A stretch of DNA of 58,184 nucleotides from an uncultured beta proteobacterium (GTDB lineage: Bacteria > Pseudomonadota > Gammaproteobacteria > Burkholderiales > Rhodocyclaceae), in assembly GCA_903959855.1 (NCBI GenBank), contig CAJBYR010000280.1:1-58184 (forward strand), written 5' to 3'. Below the pieces are notes generated by a model. That model saw nothing but the letters and a program-made list of their open reading frames with translations. It was not told where the DNA came from and did no database searches. This document shows, piece after piece, positions 8,604-52,719 of the stretch (position 1 is its first letter; every line of letters starts with the position of its first letter). Both the position numbers and the translations under genes were made by a program.

Positions 8604-9599
8604 TCAGGGACGCTGTCCCGGTGGATTCGGCGGCGAATCCGGCAATGGATGAAAGGCGCGGCTGACATAGTCTGCAATCGCGCCGATCTCGCCCGGGGAG
8701 AAGACATTTTTCCAGGCCGGCATCGATGTATTTGGCAGGCCGTCGCCGACCACGGCGATGAAGCGCGGGCGTGTCATCTGTGCCATGAATGCCGGGTCAC
8801 GCAGGTTTCGTGGATGGGGCTCGAGAAAGCTGCCGATCCAGTTTTTGCCGGTGCCGTCGGCGGCGTGGCAAAAGGCGCAATTTCCCTGAAACAGCTTTTC
8901 GCCGAGACGCTCCGAACGCGTCAAACCCTTCAGTCTGGGGCGCACATCGTGCATTGCATAGGGACTGGCGCTTGCGATCGCATCGGGCTTTGGCGGTGCC
9001 GTGAAGGAAAAATTGTTGCGCGGGTAGGAAAGCGGCCGGGCGTCCCATGTTGAGCCATCGCGCTCGCCGGGGCCGCGGTCATGACAAGTGATGCAGGTAC
9101 CGAGGAACAGCCGCTTGCCACGGGCCTGTTCCGCCGTGAGGCTTTCCCAGCTCTGGCTCATGGCGATCTCGCTGGTGGCAAACGGAAACGCAATCCGGTA
9201 GCGCTCGTGGTCCGGCCAGCCGTTTTCCGGCGTGTGGTAGCGGGTATTGACCGCCTTGCTGACCACGAACTCGTCATGTACGAAGCGCGCGACCGAGGTG
9301 ATTTCAGCCTCGGACAGAACGCTCGCAAACGACTTCATCGCCGTTCCCGGCCGCCCGACCTTCAGCGTGGCGACAATGCGAGCCTCGGGCAGGCTGGCGG
9401 GGGTCGCGGCAGTGAAATCGGCCGGCGGCGGGGTCAGGAAACTCGCCGCAACGGTTTTGGCGTTGCCGGAATAGCCGTGGCAGAAGTAACAGCGGAAATT
9501 GTAGATCGCGCGTCCGTCGGAGCCTGGCTCTGGAGCCGGCGCCGGACGGGCCGGAAACGGCAGCAAAAAAAGAACGACGACAAGCAGCAATCCTCTCAT
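8604..9599 (-). CDS. Triheme cytochrome c
   Basis: Signal peptide; CYFCH, CITCH, CAFCH. Confidence 0.88.
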   Translation of the reverse strand: MRGLLLVVVLFLLPFPARPAPAPEPGSDGRAIYNFRCYFCHGYSGNAKTVAASFLTPPPADFTAATPASLPEARIVATLKVGRPGTAMKSFASVLSEAEITSVARFVHDEFVVSKAVNTRYHTPENGWPDHERYRIAFPFATSEIAMSQSWESLTAEQARGKRLFLGTCITCHDRGPGERDGSTWDARPLSYPRNNFSFTAPPKPDAIASASPYAMHDVRPRLKGLTRSERLGEKLFQGNCAFCHAADGTGKNWIGSFLEPHPRNLRDPAFMAQMTRPRFIAVVGDGLPNTSMPAWKNVFSPGEIGAIADYVSRAFHPLPDSPPNPPGQRP

Positions 9600-9614
9600 C
9601 GGGTCAAACAGTGC

Positions 9615-10679
9615 TTACTTTGATTTGCCCTGCTTTTGCCCCGGCATGACGAAGCGCTGGAAGACAAATTCGGAGACATTGGCAATTTCCTGATTGCTTA
9701 GAACCTTGTTCCAGGCGGGCATTTCGGTGCCGAGGCGGCCCGTTGCAGTCGCCGCGTAGATTGCCGGCCGGTTGAATGCCGACGTAAACGCGGGGTCGAT
9801 GAAGATCCGTGGTTTCGGGTTGATGAAATAGGCGCGGGGCCCCTGGCCATCTCCCTTGGCGCCATGGCAGGTGGCACAGTTGGCCATGTAAAAGCGGCCG
9901 CCTGCAACCGCATCGCCCTTCAGGCTGTTGGGCATCGGCTGTTTCATGTCGGCCCCCGACGACTTGGCCGCGGGCAATGCCGCCCCGGTCTTTCGTCCGG
10001 CATGGGCGCTGGTGCCGGAAATTTCGGTCTGCGGCACCATCAAGGCGCTGCGCACATAGTCCACCACCGCTTCTATATCGGGCGCTTGCAGGCGGCTGCC
10101 GAACCCTGCCATCGCCGAACCGGGCCTGCCCATGGTGACGGAAGCAATCATGCGCTCGCGGGTCAATTCGGCTCGCGCCTGGGGGGAGGCAAGATCGCGC
10201 GCCGGCTTCGAGCCGCCGATTGCAAGTTCGCTGCCTTGTCCTTGCGCCCCGTGGCAGGTAATGCAGTTCTGCGCATAGAGGGTCTTGCCGCGTTGCAGCC
10301 GTGGATCAAGGGCCACGATCATGAACGTGCGGCGGATGTAGTCCGTGACCAATACGATTTCAGCAGGGCTGAGCTGGGTCTTCCAGCCGACCATGGCCGT
10401 GCCGGGTTTGCCATGGGTGATGATCGTGATCATCGCCTCGCGGGTCAATTCGCCGGCGGTGGTGAAATCCCGTGGCGGCGGATTCAGGCTGTTGCGCGCG
10501 CGGCTGCGTCCGTCGCCCCGGTCGCCATGGCAGACCGAGCAATAGTTGTGATACAGAGCATCCGGTCTTGATTCGGTACCTTTGGCGACACGTTCGCCGG
10601 CGAGAGCGGGAAAAGACCCGAAAAATCCCAGCATCGCGAGAACAAGAGCGATGCGGAAAGGGGAAATTAGGAATGGCAT
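9615..10679 (-). CDS. Triheme cytochrome c
   Basis: MPFLISPFRIALVLAMLGFFGSFPALA signal peptide; CSVCH, CITCH, CATCH. Confidence 0.88.
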   Translation of the reverse strand: MPFLISPFRIALVLAMLGFFGSFPALAGERVAKGTESRPDALYHNYCSVCHGDRGDGRSRARNSLNPPPRDFTTAGELTREAMITIITHGKPGTAMVGWKTQLSPAEIVLVTDYIRRTFMIVALDPRLQRGKTLYAQNCITCHGAQGQGSELAIGGSKPARDLASPQARAELTRERMIASVTMGRPGSAMAGFGSRLQAPDIEAVVDYVRSALMVPQTEISGTSAHAGRKTGAALPAAKSSGADMKQPMPNSLKGDAVAGGRFYMANCATCHGAKGDGQGPRAYFINPKPRIFIDPAFTSAFNRPAIYAATATGRLGTEMPAWNKVLSNQEIANVSEFVFQRFVMPGQKQGKSK

Positions 10680-10792
10680 GTTGATTGTGGCCTTGAAAAT
10701 GTTCCGGGGATGAGTCGCGCAGAGCCGACATGGTAGAGCCAATTCGCGCTTTGGAGCAATTCTGGAAGCAGGTATCGCACCGGACTTCGCTA

Positions 10793-10886: not shown

Positions 10887-11270
10887 ATGAATTCAGTTTT
10901 TATCCGTATTTTATTGGTTCTCTCGCCATTGGTCCTGTGGATCTTTTCGCTCGGGCCGTCCGACGGAATTGCCACTGCGGCCGACAAGAACATCGGGCGG
11001 GACATATTCCTGCAAAACTGTGCGGCCTGCCATCTCCATGGCGTCGCCCAGGCGCCGCGGGTCGGCAATTTTGCGGAGTGGGAGCCACGGCTCGCCGCCG
11101 GGCGCAGCAATCTGCTGAATTCGGTATTGCGCGGCAAGGGCGGGATGCCGCCCAAGGGCGGCAATGCGTCGATTTCTGACGCACAGGCGGCCGCCGCGTT
11201 AGACTATGTCGTCGCACAGGTTCTGGCGCTTGACCGCGACGCACAAGTGGCCAGCAGATCCGGGATGTAG
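10887..11270 (+). CDS. Monoheme cytochrome c (c5-like)
   Basis: Signal peptide; CAACH; GMPPKGGN motif and heme-domain length. Confidence 0.87.
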   Translation: MNSVFIRILLVLSPLVLWIFSLGPSDGIATAADKNIGRDIFLQNCAACHLHGVAQAPRVGNFAEWEPRLAAGRSNLLNSVLRGKGGMPPKGGNASISDAQAAAALDYVVAQVLALDRDAQVASRSGM

Positions 11271-11338
11271 AGCGGTGTCCCCGATTTGAAAAAGGCCAGA
11301 GTGCAGCTAACCGGGCTTCAGTCGCATGTATTTCGGAA

Positions 11339-12172
11339 ATGTCTGACTATCAATTTCAAAAAATTCCCGGACGGGACCAGGCGCGGCGTGAGCGGGGTTT
11401 CCTTGCACGGTTTCCAGTGCTGATGCGAGGCGGCAATTGTCGTCGGGCAACGGTTTGGCTGGTTGCGATCCTGCTCGCCACCAGTGTCAATGCGGACGTC
11501 AGGGAGACGCCGCACAATCTCATCCGTTCCCGCGACAAGAGTGTCAGCGAGAAGCAGGTGTGCGTTTTCTGCCATACCCCCATGGATGCGATGGGCGACG
11601 CCGCGGCGGGTAGCGGCAGCGGCGTAAAGCCAAGCTGGCAGCAGTCGCTGGGCAAGGAGTTTGCATTCACGATTTACGATGACATCGGGCGGCTCGGGAT
11701 CGGCAAGCCGTCCGTCGGGTCCCAGTCGCTGGCCTGTCTATCCTGTCACGATTCAAACCAGGCCTACAGCGTGGGCCGCACCTCCGCCGATCATCCGTTC
11801 GGGGTTCCCTACCGCGGCGCCAAAGGGGTCGGGCTGCAGAATTTCGCTGCGATGACCCGTGAATCAGAATCGATTGCGCCATTCCGGGTGGCGCAGCATT
11901 TGTTGTCGCTCGAGGATTTTCGCGATGTCAGTCAGGGTACGGTCGAAGGGCGGACTATCTTCTGGGTATCGAGCAGGGGTGTTACGGTGCGCCGCACGCG
12001 CAGCGACCTGCCGCTGTATGCCCGCAGCACCGGCGATCCGCTGCTTGAAGGCGATCTGTCCGTCCCGCACATCGAATGCAGCAGTTGCCATGATCCGCAT
12101 ACCAAGAACGATGCTTTCCTGCGGGTTTCGGCAACTGGTAGTCAGTTATGCCTGACCTGCCATGACAAATAG
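11339..12172 (+). CDS. Tetraheme cytochrome c, doubled-CXXCH type
   Basis: CVFCH, CLSCH, CSSCH, CLTCH; same order as the ORF at 13647. The true start may be ATG 11423 (MRGGNCRRATVWLVAILLATSVNA signal peptide). Confidence 0.85.
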   Translation: MSDYQFQKIPGRDQARRERGFLARFPVLMRGGNCRRATVWLVAILLATSVNADVRETPHNLIRSRDKSVSEKQVCVFCHTPMDAMGDAAAGSGSGVKPSWQQSLGKEFAFTIYDDIGRLGIGKPSVGSQSLACLSCHDSNQAYSVGRTSADHPFGVPYRGAKGVGLQNFAAMTRESESIAPFRVAQHLLSLEDFRDVSQGTVEGRTIFWVSSRGVTVRRTRSDLPLYARSTGDPLLEGDLSVPHIECSSCHDPHTKNDAFLRVSATGSQLCLTCHDK

Positions 12173-12217
12173 GCGGAGATACCCTATGCTTTTAAAAATT
12201 CTTTACGGAGTCGCTCG

Positions 12218-13348
12218 ATGAGTTCGGAAATCCGCTGGGTTGAAAATGTGGCGATTCTGGTGGTCCTGTTCGGCTTGTCGGCCTGCGTTACGGTCGAAAA
12301 GCGCGACCTGGACAAGGTCGGGCGAGCCGCCCGGGTTCTGGTTTACCCGTCGCCGCCCGATGAACCGCGGTACGCCTTCGAGCGGGCGATCCGCTCGAGT
12401 GCCGATGTGATCCCGGAAGAAGACGAATCCGCATTGCGTCGCGCATTGACCGGCGGCAGCGGCGCTACCGCAGAGCGACTGAACAAGCCCTATGCAATCG
12501 CGGTTCACAAAGGCAAGATTTTCGTTTCCGATTCGGTCGGCCGGGCTGTGCGTGTGTTCGATGTTCCCGGCCAACGGTATTACAAGGTCGGCGACGAAGA
12601 CGGTCAGGGCAAAATCGCCAAGCCGCTGGGCATCGATCTCGACGGCCAGGGCAATCTTTATGTCGCAGACGCTACCCAGAAAGTCATCCTGGTGTTTGAT
12701 AACGAGGGCAAGTTTTTGCGCAAGTTCGGCGGGCCCAAGCAGTTTGATCGCTTGTCCAGCGTGACAGTCGACGATGCAGGAGAAAAAGTTTACGTGGTCG
12801 ACATCGGTGGCGTTTCCTCGGATCAGCACCGGGTGCGCGTGTTCAATGCCCGCAGCGGTGTGCATCTTTACGACATCGGCAAACGCGGTGAAGGCCCCGG
12901 CGAATTCAACCTGCCGCGCGACGTGGCGCTGGGCAAGGACGGCCGCATCTACGTGGTCGATGGCGGCAATTTCCGGGTGCAGATTTTCGACAAGGACGGC
13001 AAGTATCTGAAGAGCTTCGGTTCGGTGGGCAAGCAACTGGGCAACTTCGCCCGGCCCAAGGAGATTGCCACCGACCGCGAGGGCAACGTGTTTGTTGCCG
13101 ACACCGCATTCGGCAACTTCCAGATATTTACCGCAGAAGGCGAATTGCTCATGTTCGTCGGTGACCGCTCCGAGCAGGATCAGCCTGCCGGCTACATGCT
13201 GCCGTCCGGTATTGCCGTGGATGAAGATGGCAGGGTGTATTTTGTCGATCAGTGGTTTGCGCGGATCGACGTATTCCGGCCCTACAAGCTCAAGGAGTCC
13301 GAGGGCTACCTCGGCGCCCGGGCCAAGCCGAAGGTGGCGAAGAAATAG
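12218..13348 (+). CDS. NHL-repeat beta-propeller lipoprotein
   Basis: Lipobox GLSAC; repeated NLYVADATQK / GRIYVVDGGNFRVQIFD / GNVFVADTAFGNFQIF blades. Confidence 0.87.
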   Translation: MSSEIRWVENVAILVVLFGLSACVTVEKRDLDKVGRAARVLVYPSPPDEPRYAFERAIRSSADVIPEEDESALRRALTGGSGATAERLNKPYAIAVHKGKIFVSDSVGRAVRVFDVPGQRYYKVGDEDGQGKIAKPLGIDLDGQGNLYVADATQKVILVFDNEGKFLRKFGGPKQFDRLSSVTVDDAGEKVYVVDIGGVSSDQHRVRVFNARSGVHLYDIGKRGEGPGEFNLPRDVALGKDGRIYVVDGGNFRVQIFDKDGKYLKSFGSVGKQLGNFARPKEIATDREGNVFVADTAFGNFQIFTAEGELLMFVGDRSEQDQPAGYMLPSGIAVDEDGRVYFVDQWFARIDVFRPYKLKESEGYLGARAKPKVAKK

Positions 13349-13540
13349 CCGCGAAATGAACCGGTCTGTAGCGGTTTCTTGTCAAATCCGAGAATCGCAT
13401 TCCCAGTTTTGAAAAAATTCTCAAAGGCGCCGTCTCGCGGTGGAGGAATACCGTGTGTTCCCGAAGGGTTGGATGTGGCGTTTTCTTTGGCGCGCCTTAA
13501 AAATTACATAATTTCAGAGGCTTGCCTGCCGCTGGTGGCT

Positions 13541-13558
13541 GGAACCTCAAAAGGTTCC
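13541..13558. repeat. Perfect inverted repeat GGAACC-tcaaaa-GGTTCC
   Basis: Read directly; 24 bp upstream of the candidate sigma54 element. Confidence 0.55.
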
Positions 13559-13582
13559 GGAATGCCCTGAAATGCGGTCGGC

Positions 13583-13598
13583 TGGCACAAATGCTGCT
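13583..13598 (+). promoter_or_regulatory. Candidate sigma54 (-24/-12) promoter
   Basis: TGGCACAAATGCTGCT; GG-N10-GC spacing exact; upstream of the ATG at 13647. Confidence 0.75.
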
Positions 13599-13646
13599 TT
13601 ATGTTGCTCGTGACTTGCTTTAACTAATAACTGTCAGGAGAAAATC

Positions 13647-14516
13647 ATGAGCAGAATCAGAAGCGGGCTGATCGGCTGGGCATCGGGGGCAGTGCTTGCT
13701 CTTACCCTTGGCATGCCGGGCATTGCGGCCGCAGGGATTGCCAATACCAAACACAATCTGACCTCGGCCGGTCCGGGTGTAAATAAGACGACTGGTACCG
13801 ACCAGATCTGCGTGTTTTGCCACACGCCCCACGGTTCGAATCTGGCAGTGTCGGCTCCACTTTGGAATAAGGCATTGCCGGCCAGTTCGTATAAAACCTA
13901 CAATTCCACAGGGGACGGTGGTGGTTCGGGCGTTGCCACGACGGCAACTAACTCCATCGATGGCCAGATCTTGGCCGTAGGCTCCGTGTCGCTGGCCTGT
14001 CTGTCCTGCCATGATGGTTCGCAGGCCATGGACAATATGGTTAATGCCCCCGGGTCCGGTAGCACGGCGATTGGCACTGGGGGTTGGTCGGGAGCGAACC
14101 AGGCGACAGGTGCTATAAAGGCTGGATTGTTTTCAAACTTGGGTGTCGATCTTAATAACGATCATCCGATCGGAATCCAGTACTGCGGTGGTGGTGTAAC
14201 GGGTGGCGCGACCACGTCGGCCGCGGCTGATGCCACTGTCAGTTGCAACGATGCCGACTTTGTGACGACCGTGAAAAACGCGAAGATAAATGGTCAGCAA
14301 GTGTTCTGGGTGGAGCGTGATGGAACCGCGACCAAGCGCGGCAAGGAAGACATCATTCTCTACACCCGCGATTTCACCAGCGCGTTAGCAACCCCTTCCG
14401 TTGAGTGCGGAAGCTGTCATGACCCGCACGTTGAAACAAAGGGCACGGACAACGTTAATTTCATGCGCGTAACGACATCCGGTTCGCAAATCTGCCTGGC
14501 CTGTCACGTAAAGTAA
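13647..14516 (+). CDS. Tetraheme cytochrome c (OmcE-like candidate)
   Basis: Signal peptide; NTKHNLT...QICVFCHTPHGSN...APLWNK; CLSCHDGSQ; CGSCHDPH; GSQICLACHVK*. Confidence 0.88.
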   Translation: MSRIRSGLIGWASGAVLALTLGMPGIAAAGIANTKHNLTSAGPGVNKTTGTDQICVFCHTPHGSNLAVSAPLWNKALPASSYKTYNSTGDGGGSGVATTATNSIDGQILAVGSVSLACLSCHDGSQAMDNMVNAPGSGSTAIGTGGWSGANQATGAIKAGLFSNLGVDLNNDHPIGIQYCGGGVTGGATTSAAADATVSCNDADFVTTVKNAKINGQQVFWVERDGTATKRGKEDIILYTRDFTSALATPSVECGSCHDPHVETKGTDNVNFMRVTTSGSQICLACHVK

Positions 14517-14599
14517 GCGGTCGAAGCCTGACGCAAGTCGCGAACAGGTGCGGAGGGCCGGGTAGCCGGGTGCTGCTCTGAATCCTGCGGCCTAACTCC

Positions 14600-14631
14600 A
14601 GCCCCAAAGGAAACTTTGGGGCTGTTTTTTT
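14600..14631 (+). terminator. Rho-independent terminator after the tetraheme gene
   Basis: AGCCCCAAAG-gaaa-CTTTGGGGCT followed by a T-run. Confidence 0.88.
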
Positions 14632-14882
14632 GTCCTTACGCTGGACGCGTGTCTCGCCAGCCCTAACGAAACGCGCATCTTCATCAAACCATGTGGCGGC
14701 GGATTCCCGGATCCGGGGGCGGGCGGGTTTCGACGCCCGGGCATGGCTCGTGTGCAAGTTCAGTGGGCATCAGTCGCGGCCGGTATCACGCTCGCTCTGC
14801 CGTCCTTGCGCGATTTGACCGGCAGACCACTAGAATCGGGCCTTGATGTTTTTTGTGTGTGGCCCCTCAGGAAAGGCAAATA

Positions 14883-15938
14883 ATGAACAAGACATGGAAG
14901 TCATGTGCCGCTTTGGCGGCAGTGCTGTGTTGCTGGCTGAGCGCTGCGGCCGTTCGGGCGCAGGCTGTTTCCCCTCCCGCTGCTCCCCCCGCGGCGGCAG
15001 CCATGCCGGCGGCGGCTCCGGCGGCGGTGCCTCCGGTAGCGCCCCCCCAGCCGCTGTATGCTACCGTCAATGGCAAGCCGATCATGCAGGGCGAGTTCCA
15101 TGCCGCCTACGCCAATCATTTGCGGCAGAAGTTCTACCACGGTCAGGTGCCGCAGGAGCGTCTGCTTGAAGCACGCAAGGAAGTCAGCGACAAACTGATA
15201 GACCGGATACTCTTTCTGGAGGAAATCCAGCGCCGCGGCATCACTGCCGATCCGGCGGAGCTGGATCGGCGTGTGCAGGACTACGACCAGCGCTACGCCA
15301 ACAATCCAAACTGGCAGCGCAGTCGCGAGCTGATGTTGCCCGGCCTGCGCGAGAAACTTGCCGAGCAACTCGCCATCGGGCAACTTGAACAATCCGTCAG
15401 CAAGGTTCCGCTTCCCACAGGGGAAGAAGTCAGGGCTTTTTACGCCGCCCGGCCGGAGCTATTTACCGAGCCCGAGAAGTTCCGCTTGCATTCGATTCTG
15501 CTTGCTGTCGATCCCTCGTCGGCGCGTCCGGTGTGGGATGCCGCAACGCGGGAAGGGGAAGGTATCGTTCGCCGGATTCGTGCCGGTGCTGATTTTTCGG
15601 AGCAGGCGCGACTGTTTTCCAAAGATGCGAGCGCGGAAAGCGGTGGCGACCTGGGCTACCTGCACCGGGGCATGCTGCCCGATTCATTGCAGGCCCGGCT
15701 GGAAGAGTTCAAGTTGGGCGAAGTCGGTGGCCCCATCGAAATGCTGCAGGGCGTGGGCGTCTTCCGGCTTGACGAGCGGGTGCCGCCGAAATTGAATGAC
15801 TTCGATCGGGTGGCGGCGCGCGCGCACGATCTGCTGCATCGCGACCGGCAGACCCAGGCATGGAGCGATCTCGTCGCGAAACTTCGCCGCGATGCCGTGA
15901 TCGTGATTCACGAGCCCGCACCGGTAGCTGCCCAGTAA
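14883..15938 (+). CDS. Peptidyl-prolyl cis-trans isomerase, parvulin/SurA-like
   Basis: Signal peptide; Pro/Ala-rich linker; ATVNGKPIMQGEF; parvulin core EPEKFRLHSILLAV...FSEQARLFSKDASAESGGDLGYLHRGMLPDSL. Confidence 0.86.
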   Translation: MNKTWKSCAALAAVLCCWLSAAAVRAQAVSPPAAPPAAAAMPAAAPAAVPPVAPPQPLYATVNGKPIMQGEFHAAYANHLRQKFYHGQVPQERLLEARKEVSDKLIDRILFLEEIQRRGITADPAELDRRVQDYDQRYANNPNWQRSRELMLPGLREKLAEQLAIGQLEQSVSKVPLPTGEEVRAFYAARPELFTEPEKFRLHSILLAVDPSSARPVWDAATREGEGIVRRIRAGADFSEQARLFSKDASAESGGDLGYLHRGMLPDSLQARLEEFKLGEVGGPIEMLQGVGVFRLDERVPPKLNDFDRVAARAHDLLHRDRQTQAWSDLVAKLRRDAVIVIHEPAPVAAQ

Positions 15939-16009
15939 GCGGAGCAGCGCCTGTGCATCGTGGCGGGTGTCGCCAACGCGTCAAGTGGGTGCCGGTACGG
16001 CCTTAGCCC

Positions 16010-18373
16010 GTGAGGCGCGGCGTTCGCTTGTTCCGGCACCGGACTCTCTCCCGCCTGCTGCTCGGCGCATTCGGCGGAGCAGCGGTCTGCGGCGGGTTTG
16101 CATGGGCGGCAGACGGCCCGGTCAATGTGTCAGCACCGGGCACGGGCAACCGCGATGGCACTGACGAAAACAAGCAAGCCGGTCTTGTATTGCGTTTGTC
16201 GCCGCGGCTTGGCAAGTCGCGGCTTCGCTTACCGACCGATCGGTCACCGGTGCTCAGGCCCGACATCGCCGATGTACCGGTGCTTTCGCTTTCGTACCGG
16301 CTCGACAAGCGTGCATCGGGCGCTGTCGTGGCCGGGAGGGCTCCGGCTGTTGCCGCCGCATCGGCAGCGGATCTGCCTGCGCAAGAGAGCACCGGTGTGA
16401 TGATGGCGGCTACTGCGTATAGCCCCGGCTCGCCGGTCAGCCGGCTGGTCGAGGGTGAAGAACTGCCCGAGCCCGAGGCGCCGGTTCCGTTTGACCCGCA
16501 GCCCACGACGGTGCCGCGCGCGACCGCAAACCGCGAGGCATCCCGTGGCGGGGAACAAGGGCGGGATGCGGATGGCCTTCCGGACCTGAGCGCCGAGACT
16601 TGGGTCATGGCGCCGATACGCTGGAGCGGCATGACCAACACAAGTCTCAATGCCTTCGACGCCGGCGGGGGCTCGCAAAGTTTAAGTGATACCAATGCAA
16701 TCAGCCTGCAAGCCAACAGTTTCATCATGGCGCCTTACATCGCCCAATGGACCGGGGCGGTCGGCTACAGCGGCGCGAACAGCCGATCGACTTCGGCGAG
16801 CGGCCCGACCTTGAAGAGCGCAAGTTCGGCCTTGAATTACGCCGCAGGCGTGAGTGTTTTTCCGCAAAGCCGGTTTCCCCTCAGCATGAATATCGGCCGC
16901 TCTACCAGCGAATCGAAGTCCGGTGGCGGTGCGTCTTCGACGATCAGTTCGACGTTTACCGCCAACCAGGAATACCGGACGGACGAGGGGCGCGACCGCT
17001 ACACCGCAAACTTCGCCCGGAGCACCTACGGCAGTGGCAGCAACACCAGCCTCACTTCATCCCTGCAAGGGAGTTTTTCGACCTCCCGCGACTATGAATA
17101 CGAGCATCTGCTGGAAGGGCGGCACGCGATCACGGCCAACTTCGGCATGTCTTCCGCCACTGCTGACCTCATCGGTCAGAAGTCACAAACGTTCAATGCA
17201 AACCTCAGTCACGGCTGGACAGTGTATGAAGATCTGAGTTTCGCCAACCGGCTGAATCTGATCCGCAACCAGGTTGTCGTGGCCCAGGGCAATGCGTTAA
17301 CGCAGGCGGATTCGACCTTGCTCCTCGGGGCAAGCTCTTTTTCGTGGCGTCCGTTCGAAGATGAACCCCTGCGCTTATCCGGTGGCGGAAATTTCAGCCA
17401 GACCAAGACCATGGCGAATGGCACTGCAGTGGATATGCAGAATCTGGGCGCTTCGTTATCGGCCACCTACCAGTTCAACCAGCAGCTCTCCTTTGCCGGA
17501 AATGCCTCGCTGGTGTCAACCTCATCAGCCAGCATACATACCCTAGTGACCACCCAGGGTGCTACGGCGAGTTATAGCGGGATGCCCCTCAAGTTCGGAG
17601 ATTTCAACTATCAGTGGGGTCTTGGCGGCGGAGTCAATAACTCGACCTCGAGTGCGGGGGGAGGGGGTGTTTCGGCGAGCGTATCGGCCAACCACGGACT
17701 CAGTCGTCCTTACCTGATCGATGAAGGGAATGTGATAAATCTGAATGCGGGGCAGAGTGTTTCTGTAAGTCGGGCGTCGTCGAGCCTCAATACCGGTATC
17801 TCCAATACCTTGGGGGCTTCCTGGAGTACCCGATATGGTGATCAACTGACCGGCAATCTCAGCGCCAATCTGGCGGACAATACGAACCTGGGTGCGGATG
17901 GCCAAACCCGGTTTCAGACCATGAGCCTGCTTGGTAACGGAATTTATCAGGTTAGCTCGCGGGCGGCAGTGTCCCTGAATACCAACCTGAACTGGAGCCA
18001 GAGCGGTGGCGGAGGGGGGGCTTCTTCGACGCAGGCGCTGAACGGCGTTGTCGTCGATACGCGTGCATCCCAGCTTTCCGGTTCAGTCGGGATCTCCTAT
18101 TCGCACCGCAGCCCTTTTTCGATTCCATTTCTTGAATACACTGCTAGCGCGATTTGGACAGGCAGCCAGTCGGGCCGGCGAATCGTGGGGGGGGATGCCC
18201 AGTCAAGTCAGATCCAGTCAAGCGGTTCGTTTCAGCAGTTCGCCAATTACCGGCTCGGGCGGTTGGTATTCAGCCTGAGCAATTCGATCATTGGTCAGGG
18301 TGGCAGGAAAAGTGCTTCATTGTTCGGGTCGGTCACCCGGGAGTTTGACGGATTTTTTGACGGACGCTGGTAA
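16010..18373 (+). CDS. Putative outer-membrane beta-barrel protein (787 aa), candidate electron-conduit porin
   Basis: Signal-like N-terminus ending FAWA-ADG; long S/T/N/G-rich alternating amphipathic strands; C-terminal VTREFDGFFDGRW* with terminal aromatic; embedded in a multiheme cytochrome operon. Confidence 0.7.
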   Translation: MRRGVRLFRHRTLSRLLLGAFGGAAVCGGFAWAADGPVNVSAPGTGNRDGTDENKQAGLVLRLSPRLGKSRLRLPTDRSPVLRPDIADVPVLSLSYRLDKRASGAVVAGRAPAVAAASAADLPAQESTGVMMAATAYSPGSPVSRLVEGEELPEPEAPVPFDPQPTTVPRATANREASRGGEQGRDADGLPDLSAETWVMAPIRWSGMTNTSLNAFDAGGGSQSLSDTNAISLQANSFIMAPYIAQWTGAVGYSGANSRSTSASGPTLKSASSALNYAAGVSVFPQSRFPLSMNIGRSTSESKSGGGASSTISSTFTANQEYRTDEGRDRYTANFARSTYGSGSNTSLTSSLQGSFSTSRDYEYEHLLEGRHAITANFGMSSATADLIGQKSQTFNANLSHGWTVYEDLSFANRLNLIRNQVVVAQGNALTQADSTLLLGASSFSWRPFEDEPLRLSGGGNFSQTKTMANGTAVDMQNLGASLSATYQFNQQLSFAGNASLVSTSSASIHTLVTTQGATASYSGMPLKFGDFNYQWGLGGGVNNSTSSAGGGGVSASVSANHGLSRPYLIDEGNVINLNAGQSVSVSRASSSLNTGISNTLGASWSTRYGDQLTGNLSANLADNTNLGADGQTRFQTMSLLGNGIYQVSSRAAVSLNTNLNWSQSGGGGGASSTQALNGVVVDTRASQLSGSVGISYSHRSPFSIPFLEYTASAIWTGSQSGRRIVGGDAQSSQIQSSGSFQQFANYRLGRLVFSLSNSIIGQGGRKSASLFGSVTREFDGFFDGRW

Positions 18374-18431
18374 CGTCAACCCGGCCGCTACGGGTTGTGG
18401 AAAATTCAGGTTTGCTGAGGGAAGGATCTAT

Positions 18432-18842
18432 ATGTTTGGAAAATCTGCTGTGCAACGGCTGTTGCTTGTCGCGATGGCCCTGGCAACAGTGTTTCTGGTC
18501 GACATCGACGAGGCGCGGGCCGAGTATGGAGACGTCGTGATAAATAATTATTCCGACGCCGCGGGGATGCGCCCCGCGATATTTCCGCACTGGTTCCATC
18601 GTGTGCGCTTCCGGTGCAAGGTCTGCCATGCCGACCTTGGATTCAAGTTCAAGGCCGGAGGCAACGAAATCAACATGGTGAAGATCATCGATGGCCAGTT
18701 CTGCGGGGCTTGCCATAACGGCGAGCTTGCCTGGTCGGTGGAAAACTGCAACCTTTGCCATTCCGGCAAGCCGGGAACGCCGACGCAGGTTCACGAAAGC
18801 ACGGTCCAGAAACTTGCCCCTGCGGCGCTTCAAAAGAAATAG
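18432..18842 (+). CDS. c7-type triheme cytochrome
   Basis: EYGDVVIN...FPHWFHRVRFRCKVCH...CGACH...CNLCHSGK. Confidence 0.87.
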   Translation: MFGKSAVQRLLLVAMALATVFLVDIDEARAEYGDVVINNYSDAAGMRPAIFPHWFHRVRFRCKVCHADLGFKFKAGGNEINMVKIIDGQFCGACHNGELAWSVENCNLCHSGKPGTPTQVHESTVQKLAPAALQKK

Positions 18843-18853
18843 GGGGTGCGATC

Positions 18854-19822
18854 ATGAAACTGGAACGAATCATTCTTGCTTGCGTATCCCTGGCCGGATT
18901 TGCAAACACGACGCTGGCTGCGGATGCCGGCAAGGACCTTTATACCAAGACCTGTGCGGTATGTCATGCTGCGGGCATCGCCGGCGCGCCGCGCTACGGC
19001 AATGCTGCCGAGTGGCAACCGCGCATCGCCACCGGTGTGGCGCGCTTGTACAGCAATGCCATTCAGGGTACGTCCAAGGGTATGCCACCCAAGGGGGGAA
19101 ATGCCGAAGCGTCGGATGGCGACATCAAAGCGGCGGTTGACTATATGCTGGCGTCGGTCAAGGGCGGGGCGGCGAAGCCGGCGCCGGCCGTGGCGGCGGC
19201 CCCTGCAAAGCCCGCTGCGGCGGCAGCAACGGCTGCGCCGGCGGCAGCGCCGACGGCAGCGGTCGATCCATCCTCGAATACCTCGGGGGTGCCGGCAGCC
19301 GATATCAACTCCTTCAATCGCCTGTTGCGGCCGATCGGAAAACGCAATCCACCGCCGGTGGAAGATGGCATTCACGATCCGGCCAATGACGGCACGTTAG
19401 CGCTGATGGCACCCCTGGCCGCCTATGGTCCGTTGCCGAAAAGCCTGGCAGGAAACCGGGTCAACTGGGTCAAGGCGATCGAAGAGAACAAGATCAATCC
19501 GCGCTGGGACCGCAACGATCAGGCGGCGACTCCGGTGGTCATCGATCTCAACATCGTCCGCGAAGTCAAGGGTTCAATGCCGGATGTGGTTTATCCGCAC
19601 AAGCAGCACACCGAGTGGCTCGACTGCTCGAATTGCCACCCGGCCATCTTCGTTCCGCAGAAAGGCGCCAATGCGATCAGCATGGCTGCGATCCTGCTCG
19701 GTGAAAAGTGCGGCGTCTGTCACGGCAAAGTGGCTTTCCCGGTTTCGGAATGCCGGCTGTGCCATTCAAAGAAAAAGGACTTTCGACCTGCTCAGGCCCA
19801 AGCGGCTGCTGCGCCAAAGTGA
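18854..19822 (+). CDS. Tetraheme cytochrome: c5-like monoheme domain, Ala/Pro linker, c7-type triheme domain
   Basis: CAVCH...GMPPKGGN; AKPAPAVAAAPAKPAAAAATAAPAAAPTAAV linker; FPHKQHTEWLDCSNCH, CGVCH, CRLCH. Confidence 0.87.
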   Translation: MKLERIILACVSLAGFANTTLAADAGKDLYTKTCAVCHAAGIAGAPRYGNAAEWQPRIATGVARLYSNAIQGTSKGMPPKGGNAEASDGDIKAAVDYMLASVKGGAAKPAPAVAAAPAKPAAAAATAAPAAAPTAAVDPSSNTSGVPAADINSFNRLLRPIGKRNPPPVEDGIHDPANDGTLALMAPLAAYGPLPKSLAGNRVNWVKAIEENKINPRWDRNDQAATPVVIDLNIVREVKGSMPDVVYPHKQHTEWLDCSNCHPAIFVPQKGANAISMAAILLGEKCGVCHGKVAFPVSECRLCHSKKKDFRPAQAQAAAAPK

Positions 19823-19835
19823 TTAAGGAATAGCC

Positions 19836-20726
19836 ATGAAGACGATTCACGTAGCTCTGATTTGCCTGCTGCTGAGTGGCGGTGCTTTTGCTCAGGCCAC
19901 CGCAGCAACCCCTGACAGTGCGGCGTCGCGCCTGGCCGGCAACAAGATCGACAAAGGCCAGCTTGCTTCGAATCTTGATTCCGTCGGCAAGCTGCTGGAG
20001 ACTTCCTCGGCAGCCCGCCAGATCGAGTCAAGCAAGGCGCCGGAAGCGTTGCAGCGGCGGGATCGTGCCCGCGAGCTTTACAGTAACGCCAAGGCCGCGC
20101 TCGAGCAGGGCAATCTGGAAAAGGCCTCCGCCCTGCTGGCCGAAACCCGATCGGTCTTTTTCGACGCGGTCCGGTTTGCGGCACCGGAAGAAGTCACTGC
20201 AAAAAAGCTCGAAAATGACTATCTGCTGCGCCTTGAAAGCGTGCAGGCATTGCTGGGCGCCTACAAGCGGGTTTCAGGTGAAAAATCGGCCGGGGGCGTT
20301 ACCGATACTGTCGCTCAGATCGAGAAATCGATGGCCGCAGGCGCACTTCTGGCGAAAGATCGCAAGTTCAAGGAGGCGCGTGCCGAGGTCGACCGCGGCT
20401 ATCTGGTGGCCAAGGCGGGGCTGACCACGCTGCGCAGCGGCGATACCTTGACGCGGTCCTTGAACTTCGCCAACAAGGAAGAAGAGTTTCATTATGAAAT
20501 TGACCGGAACAATACCCATCAGATGCTGATCAAAGTGCTTGTTGATGAGCAAAAGTCTTCCGGTGAGATGGTCAGGAGCTTTCTATCCAAGGCAGCTGAG
20601 TTGCGGGTCAAGGCCGATGCTGCGGCCACCCGCAAGGATTACGCCGAAGCGGTAAAGCTGCTTGAGGATTCGACCTCCGAACTGGTCCGTGCGATTCGAA
20701 ATGCAGGAATATACATACCGGGATAA
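19836..20726 (+). CDS. Heme-free, predicted helical periplasmic protein of unknown function
   Basis: Signal peptide MKTIHVALICLLLSGGAFAQA; Ala/Glu/Lys/Leu-rich helical sequence; no CXXCH; co-directional within the cytochrome operon. Confidence 0.75.
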   Translation: MKTIHVALICLLLSGGAFAQATAATPDSAASRLAGNKIDKGQLASNLDSVGKLLETSSAARQIESSKAPEALQRRDRARELYSNAKAALEQGNLEKASALLAETRSVFFDAVRFAAPEEVTAKKLENDYLLRLESVQALLGAYKRVSGEKSAGGVTDTVAQIEKSMAAGALLAKDRKFKEARAEVDRGYLVAKAGLTTLRSGDTLTRSLNFANKEEEFHYEIDRNNTHQMLIKVLVDEQKSSGEMVRSFLSKAAELRVKADAAATRKDYAEAVKLLEDSTSELVRAIRNAGIYIPG

Positions 20727-20732
20727 CCCCTA

Positions 20733-21293
20733 GTGCCGACGTGGATCATTGTTGCAGCTTTGCTTTTGGTGAACGCCCCGGTACTGGCCGGGCCATGGGA
20801 CAAACTGCGCGAGGATGGCGTCCATGATCCGCGCAGCCCGGCGATCAACCGGCTGCAGGAGCCGGGAGATGCCCTGTCGAAACTTACCCCTGACAGCGCC
20901 GGAAACATGGTGCGCTGGGTTCAGTCGCTTGAAAAAGGCGAAATAAACCCGCGCGCCAATCTGCGGCCGGACACCAAGATCCGGCTCTATGATTCCGATG
21001 TGATGCTCAATCTGAATGGCGGGATGCCGATGGTGAAATTCCCGCACCGTCAGCACACGCTGTGGCTTGATTGCGCAAATTGCCACGACCATTTGTTCAA
21101 GGCCGAGGCAGGAGCCAACAAGCTCTCGATGCTGGCGATTCTGAACGGCGAGCAATGCGGGGTCTGCCATGGCGCGGTGTCCTTTCCCCTGACCGAGTGT
21201 TTCCGCTGCCACAACACTGCCAAGCCGGGCGGCAAGCCACCCCGGCCGAGCCTGCCGATTGCAATCCCGGCCGGTGCAGTCCCACCGAAGTGA
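20733..21293 (+). CDS. c7-type triheme cytochrome
   Basis: GTG start; FPHRQHTLWLDCANCH, CGVCH, CFRCH. Confidence 0.85.
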   Translation: MPTWIIVAALLLVNAPVLAGPWDKLREDGVHDPRSPAINRLQEPGDALSKLTPDSAGNMVRWVQSLEKGEINPRANLRPDTKIRLYDSDVMLNLNGGMPMVKFPHRQHTLWLDCANCHDHLFKAEAGANKLSMLAILNGEQCGVCHGAVSFPLTECFRCHNTAKPGGKPPRPSLPIAIPAGAVPPK

Positions 21294-21679
21294 GCCAGGT
21301 GCGGCGAATCCTTCAGGTTTGTCTGCTGCTGATTCCGGCCCTGGTTGCCGGGATTCCGCCGGCAGCGGCCGAGTATGCTGACGTGGTCCTCAATCGTCGG
21401 GCGGAAAAGGAGGGCATGCGTCCGGTCATATTCCCCCACTGGTTTCATCGCATCCGCTTTCGCTGCAAGGTATGCCACCAGGAGTTGGGTTTCAAAATGC
21501 GTGTCGGCAGCAACGATGTCAGGATGTCGGATATCGTCGAAGGAAAATTTTGCGGTGCGTGCCACAACGGCGATGTTGCCTGGGCACCGGACCAATGTGA
21601 TCTGTGTCATTCGGCCAAGCGCGGCTTGCCCACGGGAATATATGGCGGTCATGAGACTCTCGGCCCCGGACGCTGGTAG
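21290..21679 (+). CDS. c7-type triheme cytochrome
   Basis: GTGA overlap with the upstream stop; FPHWFHRIRFRCKVCH, CGACH, CDLCH; close relative of the ORF at 18432. Confidence 0.85.
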   Translation: MSQVRRILQVCLLLIPALVAGIPPAAAEYADVVLNRRAEKEGMRPVIFPHWFHRIRFRCKVCHQELGFKMRVGSNDVRMSDIVEGKFCGACHNGDVAWAPDQCDLCHSAKRGLPTGIYGGHETLGPGRW

Positions 21680-22598
21680 GCGCCGTGCATTCCTCTGCCG
21701 CTCGGCCGCCACCGCGCTGGCGCTTGGCATGGCCGGCTGCAGTGCGGCGGCGCCGGCGAAGCCGCGACGGGAACTGTGGCTTGATCCGGTGTTCGGTCTT
21801 TCCGGCGCGCGCCTGACGGACAAAACGGATCCCACCGGATTTCCTTTGCCCGGTGGTAAAGAGAGCTTCGTGTACTTCCAGTTTCCGGTCGCTGTTGTCG
21901 CCAGCCTTGAATCGATCTTTATTGCCGATGCAGGAACCGGCCGCTTGTTCCGCTACGTTCAGAGCAGCGGCCTGATGACGGCGATCCCCGGCGTCAGGGT
22001 TCGTCCCGGAATGCGATTGCAGGCCGCACTCGACGGCACGGTGTTTGCGCTGGATGCCATGGGTGGGGAAATCTCACGGTATTCAATGCAGGGCATTCCA
22101 CTGCCCGCGATGCAGCCGCGCATGCCGGGCAGCCGCTACCTGGATTTTGCGATTGATCTGCAAAGCGGAACGGTTCTTGCGGTTGACGCCGTATATCGGG
22201 TGGTGGACCGGATCGAGCCCATGGGTCGTATCGCCATTGTTCATATGAACCTTGGCACAACAGGCCCGCTGGCCCTCGATGGTTCGCTGCTGGTGGTTGC
22301 CGACGCGCAATGCAAATGTGTCAGCGAATGGCGCGGCGGACGCATGCTGCGAAGGCTTGCGGTCGGCTTGATCCGGTTGCCCAAGGCTCTGGCCGCGGAA
22401 AAGGGGGAAATTTATGTCCTGGATGGATTTGATCGCAGCATTTCGCGTGTCTCTGAGGGCGGGCTGGAAACCATCATCGCGGCCGACCTCAATCTGGTTT
22501 CTCCGGAGCAGATGACCGTCGCCGGTGGCATGATGTATGTGGCCGACGGTGCTGGTCGCAAAGTGATGGCTTTTAAAATCCGACGGCGTCAGGACTGA
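21642..22598 (+). CDS. Beta-propeller-like lipoprotein
   Basis: Lipobox LGMAGC; repeated IFIADAGTGRLFRY / LLVVADAQCKCVSEW / MMYVADGAGRKVMAFK blades. Confidence 0.75.
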   Translation: MAVMRLSAPDAGRRRAFLCRSAATALALGMAGCSAAAPAKPRRELWLDPVFGLSGARLTDKTDPTGFPLPGGKESFVYFQFPVAVVASLESIFIADAGTGRLFRYVQSSGLMTAIPGVRVRPGMRLQAALDGTVFALDAMGGEISRYSMQGIPLPAMQPRMPGSRYLDFAIDLQSGTVLAVDAVYRVVDRIEPMGRIAIVHMNLGTTGPLALDGSLLVVADAQCKCVSEWRGGRMLRRLAVGLIRLPKALAAEKGEIYVLDGFDRSISRVSEGGLETIIAADLNLVSPEQMTVAGGMMYVADGAGRKVMAFKIRRRQD

Positions 22599-23686
22599 TG
22601 ACACTGCGTCATTTACTGCTTGTTGTTATGTTTCTTGGATTGTTGTCCGGCTGTGCCGGCCAGGCCAGGAAGAACCTGTTCGTCATTGACGTGGATCAGA
22701 CCCAAAAAGGGCATCTGATGTTTCCGCCGGATATCGATGGCGATGTTCCGCGTTACGTCTACCTCGGCCATCTTTACGGAGACCGGAATTTCATCGATCC
22801 CGAGCCCAGAGGCCCCGGTTTGCTGGAAACCCTGGGGCGGATTCTGGATTTCATCAAGGGTGATGCGCCGCCACGCGAACTCTACCGGCCGCAAACGGGT
22901 GTAATCGACGAGGCGGGCCGGATTATGGTCGTCGATCGGGGAAGCCCTGGGGTGTTTGTGTTCGACGAAACCAAGGCGACCCTGGAGTTGTGGCAGCAGG
23001 CCGTGGGCTCGCAGATGTTCGTGAGTCCGGTCGGTATTGCCCTGGGGCCGGACGGCTTGCTGCTGGTGGCGGATAGCGAACTGGCGTTCGTTGCACAGCT
23101 TGACCGGCAAGGGAATCCCGCAAGCACCATCGGCAAAGGCCACTTGACCCGTCCGACCGGGATTGCCTACGAGGCATCGACCCGGCGCATCTTTGTTGCC
23201 GATACCGCCGATCATCAGATCAAACTGTTCGACTTGCAAGGCAAACTGCTCGACGTCTGGGGCGAGCGCGGCGACGGACCGGGCGAGTTCAACTTTCCGA
23301 CCTTCATCACTGTGCGCGACGGGAAACTTTATGTCTCAGATACGATCAATGCCCGGGTTCAGGTGCTGTCTACCGTAGACGGCAAGCATCTTGCAACGGT
23401 TGGCAAACTCGGGATGTACGTTGGTAACATGGTTCGACCCAAGGGTGTGGCTGTTGATGGCGAGGGAAATATTTATGTGGTTGAGTCTTTTTATGATCAT
23501 TTGCTGGTCTATAACTCCCGTGGCGAGTTCCTGATGCCGATCGGGGGCGTCGGCAGCGAGCCAGGCCAGTTTCACCTGCCATCCGGTGTCTGGATCGACG
23601 CGCGCAATCGCGTGTTCGTCGCGGATGGCCTGAACAGTCGTGTCTCTGTATTTCAGTTCCTGGGTGGAGGATCGGAGAGTGAATAG
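22598..23686 (+). CDS. NHL-repeat beta-propeller lipoprotein
   Basis: Lipobox LLSGC; RIFVADTADHQIKLFD, KLYVSDTINARVQVL, NIYVVESFYDHLLVY, RVFVADGLNSRVSVFQ. Confidence 0.87.
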   Translation: MTLRHLLLVVMFLGLLSGCAGQARKNLFVIDVDQTQKGHLMFPPDIDGDVPRYVYLGHLYGDRNFIDPEPRGPGLLETLGRILDFIKGDAPPRELYRPQTGVIDEAGRIMVVDRGSPGVFVFDETKATLELWQQAVGSQMFVSPVGIALGPDGLLLVADSELAFVAQLDRQGNPASTIGKGHLTRPTGIAYEASTRRIFVADTADHQIKLFDLQGKLLDVWGERGDGPGEFNFPTFITVRDGKLYVSDTINARVQVLSTVDGKHLATVGKLGMYVGNMVRPKGVAVDGEGNIYVVESFYDHLLVYNSRGEFLMPIGGVGSEPGQFHLPSGVWIDARNRVFVADGLNSRVSVFQFLGGGSESE

Positions 23687-26354
23687 GTTCTGGTTGCGGG
23701 TGGTTCTGCTGCTGGCCATTGGCGCCTTGAGCATTCCGTTCGCCCGTGCCGAACGCCAGTCAAAAGTCAGCGAAACCAAGCACAACCTGTCTACGAGCAG
23801 CGCGGACGGAAACACCAAATCCGGGACCGAAAGCCAGATTTGCGTCTTCTGCCATACGCCGCACGGCGCCAATACGACGAATGTTTCGCCACTGTGGAAC
23901 CGTGCCACCTCCGGCGCAACCTACAACGCGTACTCCTCCGAATCGCTGGACGCCAGATTCGTCCTGGCCAGCAACTGGCTGGGCCAACCGCTGGGAAGTT
24001 CGAAACTGTGCCTCTCGTGCCACGATGGCACGATTGCGCTGGGCAATGTCGTCAATGCCCCCGGTGCAGGTGCCGGCAGCGCCATCTCTGTTGCGGGCAG
24101 CACAACAACCACAATGCCGGCCGGCACCAACACCGATGGCGCCTCCCCGGCTCAATCGGGCTATACGCGTCTGATCGGCAGCGATCTGCGAAACGATCAT
24201 CCGATCTCGATCACCTATGACAGTACGCTGGCCGCACGGGACGGCGAACTGCGTGTGCCGAACGCCCAGCAGCAGATTACGGGCCTGGCGCAAAACAGCA
24301 ATCATCCCCTGGTCGGGCCGCGCGCTCCGGGTCAAGGCAGCGGCATCGGCAACTCGGCCGCCAGCAGCGGATTGTATGGTACGAAATCGACGCGCCCGGT
24401 GCTGCCCCTGGAAAACACCACCGGCGCTGGCAGCGGCACCGGGCAAGTGCAATGCACCACCTGTCACGATCCGCACATCAAGGAAACCGACCTCACAGCC
24501 GAGAAGAACATCAAGTTTTTGCGGCGGCCGCGTTTCCAGCTGGATGTAGCGACCGGCAACTACCAGGACGGCAAAGACATCATCTGCCTTGCCTGTCACG
24601 ACAAAGGCGGCGAAAGCTGGGCCCGCTCGGCGCATGCCAATAGTCAAGTTGCCCAGCAAACTTACAAAGATGCAGCCGCCAACCTTCGCGAATTTCCATT
24701 GAACATTCCCGTCTGGAAGGCCTCCTGCCTGAATTGCCACGATACGCACACCGTCAGCGGCGCGCGGCGCCTGACACGCGGTGGTGTGCTCAGCGGCACC
24801 AGCACCCCGGCGCTGGAAGAAACATGCTACCAGTGCCACCGCAGTACCGGTTCGATCCTCAACTCGGTGACCACGGTGCCGGATATATGGGCTGATTTTC
24901 AGCTGGCCCGCAAAATGCCGATCACTGCCGCCAACGAGCAAACCAGGCACGACATCGGCGGAAATTTTAACGACACCTATTTGGGAACGGGAACGTCGGG
25001 ATCAAATTGCACCGGCGCTACCAACAAGTGCGGTGCCGATTTTGTCGAGGCTGTTGAGTTTCTCGGCCCGCCTCCGGGTCACCTTTCCGGTAAGGCGACC
25101 AACTCCAATCGCCATGCCGAATGCACGGATTGCCACAACCCGCACCGGGTGGTGAAGAATCGTCTTTTTTATGGATCGGCGAGCGGGTCGTACAATATCA
25201 CTGCGCCGCAATCCGAGGGGACACACAATCATACGGACACCGCGATGCTGCATACCAATGTTGCTTCGGGAGTTTTGCGGGGAACCTGGGGGGTCGAACC
25301 GAGTTATTCGAGCGCATCTTTTCATAGCCTAGCTAGCGATTTCAAGGTTCGTCGCGGCGACCCGGGTATCGATTTTGTAGCGAATGATTCTACCCCCGAC
25401 GACAAGGGCTTTGTGACGCGCGAATATCAGGTGTGTCTCAAGTGCCATTCTTCTTATGCCTATGGCAGCACGCCGCCGGACTTGGGCGTTTCCACGCCAA
25501 GCGGAACCAACGGCCTGACAAAATACACGGACCAGGCCAAGGAATTTCAGGCACCGGACGCTCACAGAGGCGAACCCCTCAGCGTCGGAAATGCCGGTGG
25601 ATCGGTTGGATACAACGCGAACAACCACCGCTCGTGGCACCCGGTGATGCGTTCAACCGGCCGCGACGCCGGGAGTCGCGATTTGAATGCCGACAATGCG
25701 TTCCGGCTACCGTTCCGGAATGTCGGCACCCAAACCATGTACTGCAGCGATTGCCATGGGAGCAACACGGGCGGCACTACAGCGATCCCGGCGGGAACAA
25801 ACCAGTCCGCCGGCGAGGGCTCCGCCTGGGGGCCGCACGGCTCAGGCAATGATTTCATTTTAAAAGGAGTATGGACCGGTAATACCGGGCACAACACTGC
25901 CAATGCGCTTTGTCTGAAATGCCACAACCCCATAAGTTCAACGGGTTTTAATGGGCCTGTAGGGAATTTGCATGACGAACATCAAAAACGGATCGGGGGA
26001 ACCCTGCAATGTACCTGGTGCCATATCGCCGTACCGCATGGCTGGAAGAACAAGGCCTTGCTCGTCAATTTGAACGATGTGGGCGGCGAGGTGCCGGGTT
26101 ACTTGGCGACTGACAGTTTTGAGGTCGCCATTCAAAATAGCGCTGACAACTATACGGCGCCGCCATATTATCTGGAGGCAAAAAACAAGATTCGTTCTTT
26201 CGCGCAAAGTGGTAGTTGGGTAGAAGGCAACTGTGGATCATCGAATGTTGCAGGGAAAACGATCATCGCGAATAGTCAGGGCGGCACTAGTAATCGCGCA
26301 GGGTCAGGGAAAAACTGGATGACAGCGGGTGTCTGCAATTCGGGCATGCCGTAG
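23679..26354 (+). CDS. Undecaheme (11 CXXCH) cytochrome c
   Basis: GTG start overlapping the upstream stop, then signal peptide VNRFWLRVVLLLAIGALSIPFARA; CVFCH, CLSCH, CTTCH, CLACH, CLNCH, CYQCH, CTDCH, CLKCH, CSDCH, CLKCH, CTWCH. Confidence 0.88.
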   Translation: MNRFWLRVVLLLAIGALSIPFARAERQSKVSETKHNLSTSSADGNTKSGTESQICVFCHTPHGANTTNVSPLWNRATSGATYNAYSSESLDARFVLASNWLGQPLGSSKLCLSCHDGTIALGNVVNAPGAGAGSAISVAGSTTTTMPAGTNTDGASPAQSGYTRLIGSDLRNDHPISITYDSTLAARDGELRVPNAQQQITGLAQNSNHPLVGPRAPGQGSGIGNSAASSGLYGTKSTRPVLPLENTTGAGSGTGQVQCTTCHDPHIKETDLTAEKNIKFLRRPRFQLDVATGNYQDGKDIICLACHDKGGESWARSAHANSQVAQQTYKDAAANLREFPLNIPVWKASCLNCHDTHTVSGARRLTRGGVLSGTSTPALEETCYQCHRSTGSILNSVTTVPDIWADFQLARKMPITAANEQTRHDIGGNFNDTYLGTGTSGSNCTGATNKCGADFVEAVEFLGPPPGHLSGKATNSNRHAECTDCHNPHRVVKNRLFYGSASGSYNITAPQSEGTHNHTDTAMLHTNVASGVLRGTWGVEPSYSSASFHSLASDFKVRRGDPGIDFVANDSTPDDKGFVTREYQVCLKCHSSYAYGSTPPDLGVSTPSGTNGLTKYTDQAKEFQAPDAHRGEPLSVGNAGGSVGYNANNHRSWHPVMRSTGRDAGSRDLNADNAFRLPFRNVGTQTMYCSDCHGSNTGGTTAIPAGTNQSAGEGSAWGPHGSGNDFILKGVWTGNTGHNTANALCLKCHNPISSTGFNGPVGNLHDEHQKRIGGTLQCTWCHIAVPHGWKNKALLVNLNDVGGEVPGYLATDSFEVAIQNSADNYTAPPYYLEAKNKIRSFAQSGSWVEGNCGSSNVAGKTIIANSQGGTSNRAGSGKNWMTAGVCNSGMP

Positions 26355-28484: not shown

Positions 28485-28485
28485 C

Positions 28486-31907: not shown

Positions 31908-32099
31908 AACACCGCATGCTAACTCACGGCATTTCTATCTGCCAGTTGGCAGTGCCGGGCGCGGCGAATGAGCCGATTTTCGAAGTCAGATTTTCCGCCG
32001 CCCTGCGGGAGCGGGCGGTATGTATAGCATCGGACTGGTCGAGAGTCGGCGGTGGCCCTACGCCGATGGGGTGCTTGTGTATGCCATACGAGGGCGCCC

Positions 32100-37749: not shown

Positions 37750-37915
37750 GAGAGATTGCAGCACCAGTCTGCTGCGGCCTGCAAGGGGAATCGGTTTGAA
37801 GGCGCTTAATAGTTGTTTCATTTTCAAATCTCTCCCCGAAGTGAGATGTGCTTATGCTTTTTTATATGGCTACAGTGCCTGACGCTAGCTGACGGGATGC
37901 GTTTCGGGGGTTAGA

Positions 37916-40531: not shown

Positions 40532-40566
40532 ACCTAATGATATTTGACTAATTATTGTGATCATCG

Positions 40567-40582: not shown

Positions 40583-40638
40583 CCAAATGCTTGCCGGTTC
40601 CGTCAGTCGCGATTCTGTGGCGTGGTGATCGTCTAGCT

Positions 40639-52706: not shown

Positions 52707-52719
52707 AGGAGTTTCATCG

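Follow-up and report, generated by a model that had tools for sequence, protein, structure and literature searches.

The contig CAJBYR010000280.1 of an uncultured betaproteobacterium, 58,184 nucleotides of which were analysed here as one stretch (the window), carries a cluster of multiheme cytochrome, porin-like and propeller genes which we regard, with a probability of roughly 85%, as a complete Uet-type (undecaheme electron transfer) locus with a role in extracellular electron transfer, the direction of flow apart, in a Sulfuritalea-like Rhodocyclales bacterium. The Uet complex has been described in cathode-oxidising Tenderiales and in Gallionella and comprises the undecaheme cytochrome UetJ, the tetraheme UetA, the trihemes UetD, UetE and UetG, the peptidyl-prolyl isomerase UetB, the NHL proteins UetH and UetI and the barrel UetC (Hoover et al., 2023, PMC10734462). 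In "Ca. Tenderia electrophaga" the trihemes Tel_16515, 16520 and 16530 lie around the tetratricopeptide repeat (TPR) gene Tel_16525 and the undecaheme protein is Tel_16545 (Eddie et al., 2017, PMC5371394); UetJ and a porin are also present in Leptothrix-group genomes (PMC13386937). Positions 10887-26354 of the window agree with these systems in parts and order, as compared by published gene descriptions. A preliminary description had proposed a "related but distinct type"; the cluster belongs instead to this already named system. The evidence lies in gene content and order, a predicted barrel fold, homology to the cytochrome OmcE and conservation among relatives.

The segment 10887-26354 holds 14 consecutive genes, all on the + strand; besides the cytochromes they encode a peptidyl-prolyl isomerase, the outer-membrane barrel and, among the lipoproteins, three propellers. 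The preliminary description had characterized these reading frames accurately one by one, but its figure of 12 genes disagrees with its own list; its total of 33 hemes is borne out by the CXXCH motifs of the successive cytochromes (1, 4, 4, 3, 4, 3, 3, and 11). Searches of Pfam and NCBIfam confirmed the expected cytochrome c, c7, NHL and isomerase domains (class I cytochrome c, paired-CXXCH, c7 triheme TIGR04257, NHL and PPIC-type families), whereas the 787-residue reading frame matched no family and the helical protein none with confidence. All the named Uet components are present: UetA (13647..14516), a tetraheme homologue of OmcE; UetB (14853..15938), a SurA/PpiC-type isomerase (Rotamase_2, E=5e-12) whose true start possibly lies 3' of the TTG; UetC (16010..18373), the barrel; UetD (18432..18842), a c7 triheme with an inferred start (TIGR04257, E=3e-17); UetE (18857..19822), a class I monoheme domain (Cytochrome_CBB3) fused to a c7 triheme (Cytochrome_C7), the C-terminal part of which shares 73-79% identity with seven of the eight homologues aligned; two UetG-type c7 trihemes (20733..21293, TIGR04257 E=2e-15; 21263..21679, TIGR04257 E=8e-19 and PDB 3ov0 E=3e-37); UetH (21657..22598), a propeller lipoprotein with a Tat-like signal, the lipobox MAGC and a weak NHL match; UetI (22598..23686), an NHL propeller lipoprotein (E=3e-25) with the lipobox LSGC; and UetJ (23640..26354), with 11 CXXCH motifs. 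The third lipobox, LSAC, belongs to a further NHL propeller lipoprotein (12218..13348; E=8e-22). The UetF position is occupied by a helical protein (19836..20726), in the expected place and devoid of a TPR match in Pfam; its Tenderia counterpart is described as a TPR protein (PMC5371394).

The barrel nature of the 787-residue protein, already suspected from its sequence, is supported by several lines of evidence. The AlphaFold2 model of UetC, built with 58 homologues, shows 28 long beta strands with predicted local distance difference test (pLDDT) scores mostly >90, following about 195 disordered N-terminal residues. Across the 58 homologues hydrophobicity alternates with a period of two (lag-1 autocorrelation -0.205, lag-2 +0.178; shuffle standard deviation ~0.04), and the last residue is F, Y or W in 50 of them. 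Foldseek searches with the model retrieved outer-membrane barrels at probability 1.00 with low TM-scores, MtrB (6r2q_B) ranking 44th, and the UetC sequence profile found no convincing relative in the PDB. In a profile search of its own genome UetC was not matched by the MtrB/PioB model TIGR03509, which gave matches at C263 and C264 instead. Since this model misses UetC and Foldseek finds outer-membrane barrels, UetC is predicted to be a porin-like barrel of a family separate from MtrB/PioB.

The arrangement recurs in many genomes. A UetE profile search of a species-level collection yielded 481 stretches confirmed to encode a relative, the best 80 of which were analysed, with 53 full-flank loci used for gene-order counts. 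These best 80 are mostly from Rhodocyclales, together with other Betaproteobacteria and some Gammaproteobacteria, and include Leptothrix discophora, Ramlibacter lithotrophicus and an Aromatoleum strain; the Tenderia locus is not among them. The closest relatives are Rhodocyclales/Sulfuritalea metagenome-assembled genomes (90-96%). The whole UetA-J core occurs in 44/53 loci and the exact order of the window in 31/53, most UetJ homologues have 11 CXXCH motifs, and the helical protein has a homologue in all 53; since dozens of genomes share both the genes and their order, the arrangement is not due to chance. Upstream members vary in frequency: the lipoprotein at 12218 is found in 47/53 loci and a monoheme class I cytochrome c (10887..11270; Pfam) in 21/53. 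An apparent absence of UetA and UetJ from Aromatoleum-type loci was rejected, since it resulted from the 10-kb flank: a genome search showed that these genomes do encode UetA (59-61%) and large OmcE-like proteins, at other sites. Occurrence is patchy (33/298 family genomes, 6/13 in the genus and 20/398 in the order, the family and order counts including weak matches), and no match was found in 72,556 plasmids. Many relatives (L038, L065, L067, L071, L081 and others) have a second, diverged UetF-like helical gene beside the first, and in that of Piscinibacter aquaticus (L082) uetA, uetJ and neighbours are in pieces in different frames, by decay or sequencing errors.

These domains, the barrel and the relatives uphold what had been suggested at the outset, namely a candidate extracellular electron-transfer conduit with its folding factor in a betaproteobacterium. 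In the mechanism envisaged, periplasmic c7 trihemes (UetD, UetE, and UetG types) and class I cytochromes would pass electrons to the UetC barrel, and a heme protein in or at UetC would connect to the secreted 11-heme UetJ and to OmcE-like UetA outside; UetB would fold exported parts and the propeller lipoproteins UetH, UetI and 12218 may serve as scaffolds. In agreement with a lifestyle based on extracellular electrons, MtrB/PioB barrels are enriched in Uet-positive members of the family (24/30 vs. 62/268 Uet-negative genomes, p=1e-9) and of the genus (6/6 vs. 2/7, p=0.02).

As to direction, inward flow is slightly favoured, the extracellular donor probably being Fe(II) or the like. The genome under study encodes RuBisCO and two MtrB/PioB barrels (C263 and C264; L116 and L117), each adjoining a decaheme cytochrome and one of them also close to a two-component system, a monoheme cytochrome and a protein with 9 hemes; for these MtoAB-type loci no MtrC partner was found over the cut-off, and this combination leans to uptake. 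The strongest expression evidence was obtained on a cathode, where the trihemes of the Tenderia cluster were among the most highly expressed genes (PMC5371394). The opposite direction, in which the conduit would serve respiration with Mn(III)/Fe(III) or oxides as acceptors, comes out at somewhat below even odds against these observations, and has in its favour the full-length cluster of the Rhodocyclales bacterium GT-UBC (L037) and the undecaheme cytochrome reported in Mn(III)-reducing Ca. Dechloromonas occultata. The latter is also one of several points that weigh against the reading of an electron-transfer locus with uptake. RuBisCO is not significantly linked to Uet in the family (20/30 vs. 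134/268, p=0.12), so that uptake is weakly supported and autotrophy was rejected as a marker of inward flow; the co-occurrence tests take genomes as independent, ignoring shared ancestry; the likeness to the Tenderia locus is drawn from gene descriptions and not from Tenderia protein sequences; and no genetic test of any Uet system was found in the literature. Because Uet goes with MtrB/PioB but not clearly with RuBisCO, either direction of flow is plausible.

The kinship of part of the cluster with OmcE, the cytochrome of a Geobacter sulfurreducens nanowire, extends to four proteins. Among PDB entries UetA matches OmcE (7TFS, E=5.5e-28) and 9YUQ (2.5e-22), the next match being at 0.12; residues 23-204 of UetJ match both at about 1e-17, the OmcE match covering residues 23-202 at E=3e-17; a second OmcE-like tetraheme (11339..12172), which represents a subfamily here called g2, matches OmcE at 1.2e-13; and a 224-residue tetraheme encoded outside the cluster (37153..37827, - strand) matches OmcE at 2e-18 and 9YUQ at 9e-19. 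In a search of the own genome with this last protein, OmcE-like matches were confined to the window. The likeness to Geobacter filaments drawn in the preliminary description was therefore right for OmcE but not for OmcS or OmcZ, neither of which was matched in PDB sequence searches with these four proteins, OmcE and 9YUQ giving the only strong matches. Entry 9YUQ, for which no describing paper was found in a literature search, is a multiheme cytochrome entry that contains the OmcE-like tetraheme in 16 copies and may represent a further filament. The AlphaFold2 model of UetJ (mean pLDDT 56, OmcE-like N-terminus <50) was left out of the fold search.

Heme motifs do not by themselves account for this homology. 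With all CXXCH motifs masked, a UetA hidden Markov model still matched OmcE (E=1.8e-21) and the UetJ domain was recovered at E=4e-32, while c7 and MtrA-type decaheme controls gave nothing. The four heme motifs of OmcE are all retained in UetA and in the UetJ N-terminus; OmcE has five other histidines, four of which, His31, His58, His149 and His208 in the numbering of the PDB chain, are conserved in UetA (52-54/54) and in UetJ (54/54). The g2 subfamily lacks OmcE His58 in 31/31 members and has lost none of the remaining conserved histidines. UetA, g2 and the UetJ N-terminus form three separate clades in a tree. The conserved non-motif histidines of UetA and UetJ are probably heme ligands (bis-His); in OmcE and OmcS filaments a ligand histidine is contributed by the neighbouring subunit (PMC9473688).

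A sharper version of the electron-transfer reading, compatible with it, builds on this pattern of homology surviving masking, a kept histidine set, exactly one loss in g2 and separate clades: UetA would form an OmcE-type filament outside the cell, UetJ would be the adaptor between wire and conduit and g2 the chain end or cap. This proposal is tentative, since sequence cannot show polymerisation, which for UetA is a reasonable guess and not a result; UetA is moreover about 55 residues longer than OmcE, and the role of filaments in extracellular electron transfer is itself a matter of dispute (PMC11077965). More doubtful still is the broader idea that Uet serves Beta- and Gammaproteobacteria as a nanowire system, in which UetA would be the OmcE-type wire, UetJ would carry an OmcE-like domain on a seven-heme base docking on the 28-strand barrel, and g2, its probable heme ligand lost, would end the chain. 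That the cytochromes store electrons or buffer the redox state in the periplasm, beside an unrelated porin, is very unlikely: the trihemes are indeed soluble, periplasmic-type proteins, but the ordered association of barrel, isomerase and cytochromes persists from genus to genus and also in gammaproteobacterial loci, and UetA and UetJ are homologous to an extracellular protein. No literature naming OmcE-like proteins in Uet clusters was found in a search that lacked the founding Uet paper as well as numerous further articles; relative to the literature searched, the OmcE homology of UetA, g2 and UetJ thus appears to be an addition.

The Uet locus exceeds 10887-26354, the limits first drawn for the module, on both sides (8604-10742 and 35945-55653). 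Upstream, two divergent class I cytochromes c on the - strand, one with three hemes (8604..9599; Cytochrome_CBB3) and one with three heme-domain stretches (9615..10742; Pfam), have homologues adjoining the cluster in 46/53 and 45/53 loci, respectively. Downstream on the + strand, and linked to Uet in relatives, lie genes for a ResB-like heme-attachment protein (35945..37021), a CcsA-like cytochrome c assembly protein (40591..41454), CcmF (43463..45436; CcmF_C, E=8e-126), CcmI/CycH (46490..47731), a histidine kinase (48446..49972) and two Reg_prop propeller proteins (52663..55001), all assigned by Pfam, and a sigma-54-activator-like response regulator read from the sequence (49983..51395). A fifth c7 triheme (54958..55653, +; Pfam, A1 profile E=2e-35) shares the contig of UetE in 25/30 Uet-positive family genomes. 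Nearly the whole 35945-55653 set adjoins Uet in two same-genus genomes and parts of it, rearranged, in four genomes of other genera; the OmcE-like protein of 37153 was found in none of these six relatives. The locus thus appears to reach ~55.6 kb, taking in the heme-attachment genes, the two-component system and the fifth c7, an extent not found in the literature searched, the founding paper excluded. ResB, CcsA, CcmF and CcmI would attach the hemes, a process that the linked two-component system would control.

Several neighbouring genes deserve mention. Between the two halves of the locus, 26470-35997 encodes radical SAM proteins, a glycosyltransferase-radical SAM fusion (28486-30627) and a DegT-type aminotransferase (33356), and two genomes of the same genus have homologues of 33356 and 34552 at the corresponding position; since OmcE and OmcS filaments are glycosylated (PMC9473688), a role in surface sugars or modification is conceivable. 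An M48 metalloprotease (7693-8598, -) adjoins the cluster, its nearest relative being the barrel-assembly-enhancing protease BepA (E=3e-19, below cut-off). A protein of ~500 residues with multiple transmembrane segments (41283-42824), possibly heme-copper-oxidase-like, is encoded between the gene for CcsA and a TPR gene and is kept in several relatives.

The OmcE kinship, the UetJ fusion and the linked heme-attachment and regulatory block merit specialist attention. If the kinship means what it suggests, Uet unites a porin conduit and a cytochrome filament in one operon and would offer a means of studying how a wire is attached to a conduit in the outer membrane. Leptothrix, Ramlibacter, Aromatoleum and Dechloromonas are culturable bacteria with Uet. 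As a genomic marker of the system, the linked genes for heme attachment and regulation may do better than the undecaheme gene alone.

Compared with known systems, UetA, g2, the 37153 tetraheme and the UetJ N-terminus share the heme motifs of the OmcE nanowire (7TFS), and all but g2 keep its four further histidines; however, they belong to a barrel/c7 cluster and UetJ carries seven more hemes. The triheme c7 domain is common to PDB 3ov0, 3oue, 3ouq and 1rwj, which are Geobacter GSU1996 and relatives, but here it occurs in separate single-triheme genes, one of them fused to a class I domain. The cluster of Ca. Dechloromonas occultata, known as Occ, is likewise undecaheme-centred and from Rhodocyclales, and the GT-UBC locus, presumably of the same organism, has the window's genes in order. 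MtrCAB, MtoAB and PioAB also combine multiheme cytochromes with an outer-membrane barrel, whereas the Uet cluster lacks a decaheme MtrA by heme counts and its barrel, with 28 predicted strands, is missed by the MtrB model. PCC3 relies on a periplasmic cytochrome of 21-27 hemes (PMC10734462), while the largest cytochrome here has 11. With the Uet loci of Ca. Tenderia electrophaga, Gallionella and Leptothrix the window shares the tetraheme, the isomerase, the porin, c7 trihemes flanking a further gene (helical here, TPR in Tenderia), two NHL propellers and the undecaheme cytochrome; it appears to differ from the Tenderia type in the extra class I heme domain of UetE, the second OmcE-like tetraheme, the third NHL lipoprotein, the divergent class I cytochromes and the linked heme-attachment and regulatory genes, which appear to extend it to 55.6 kb.

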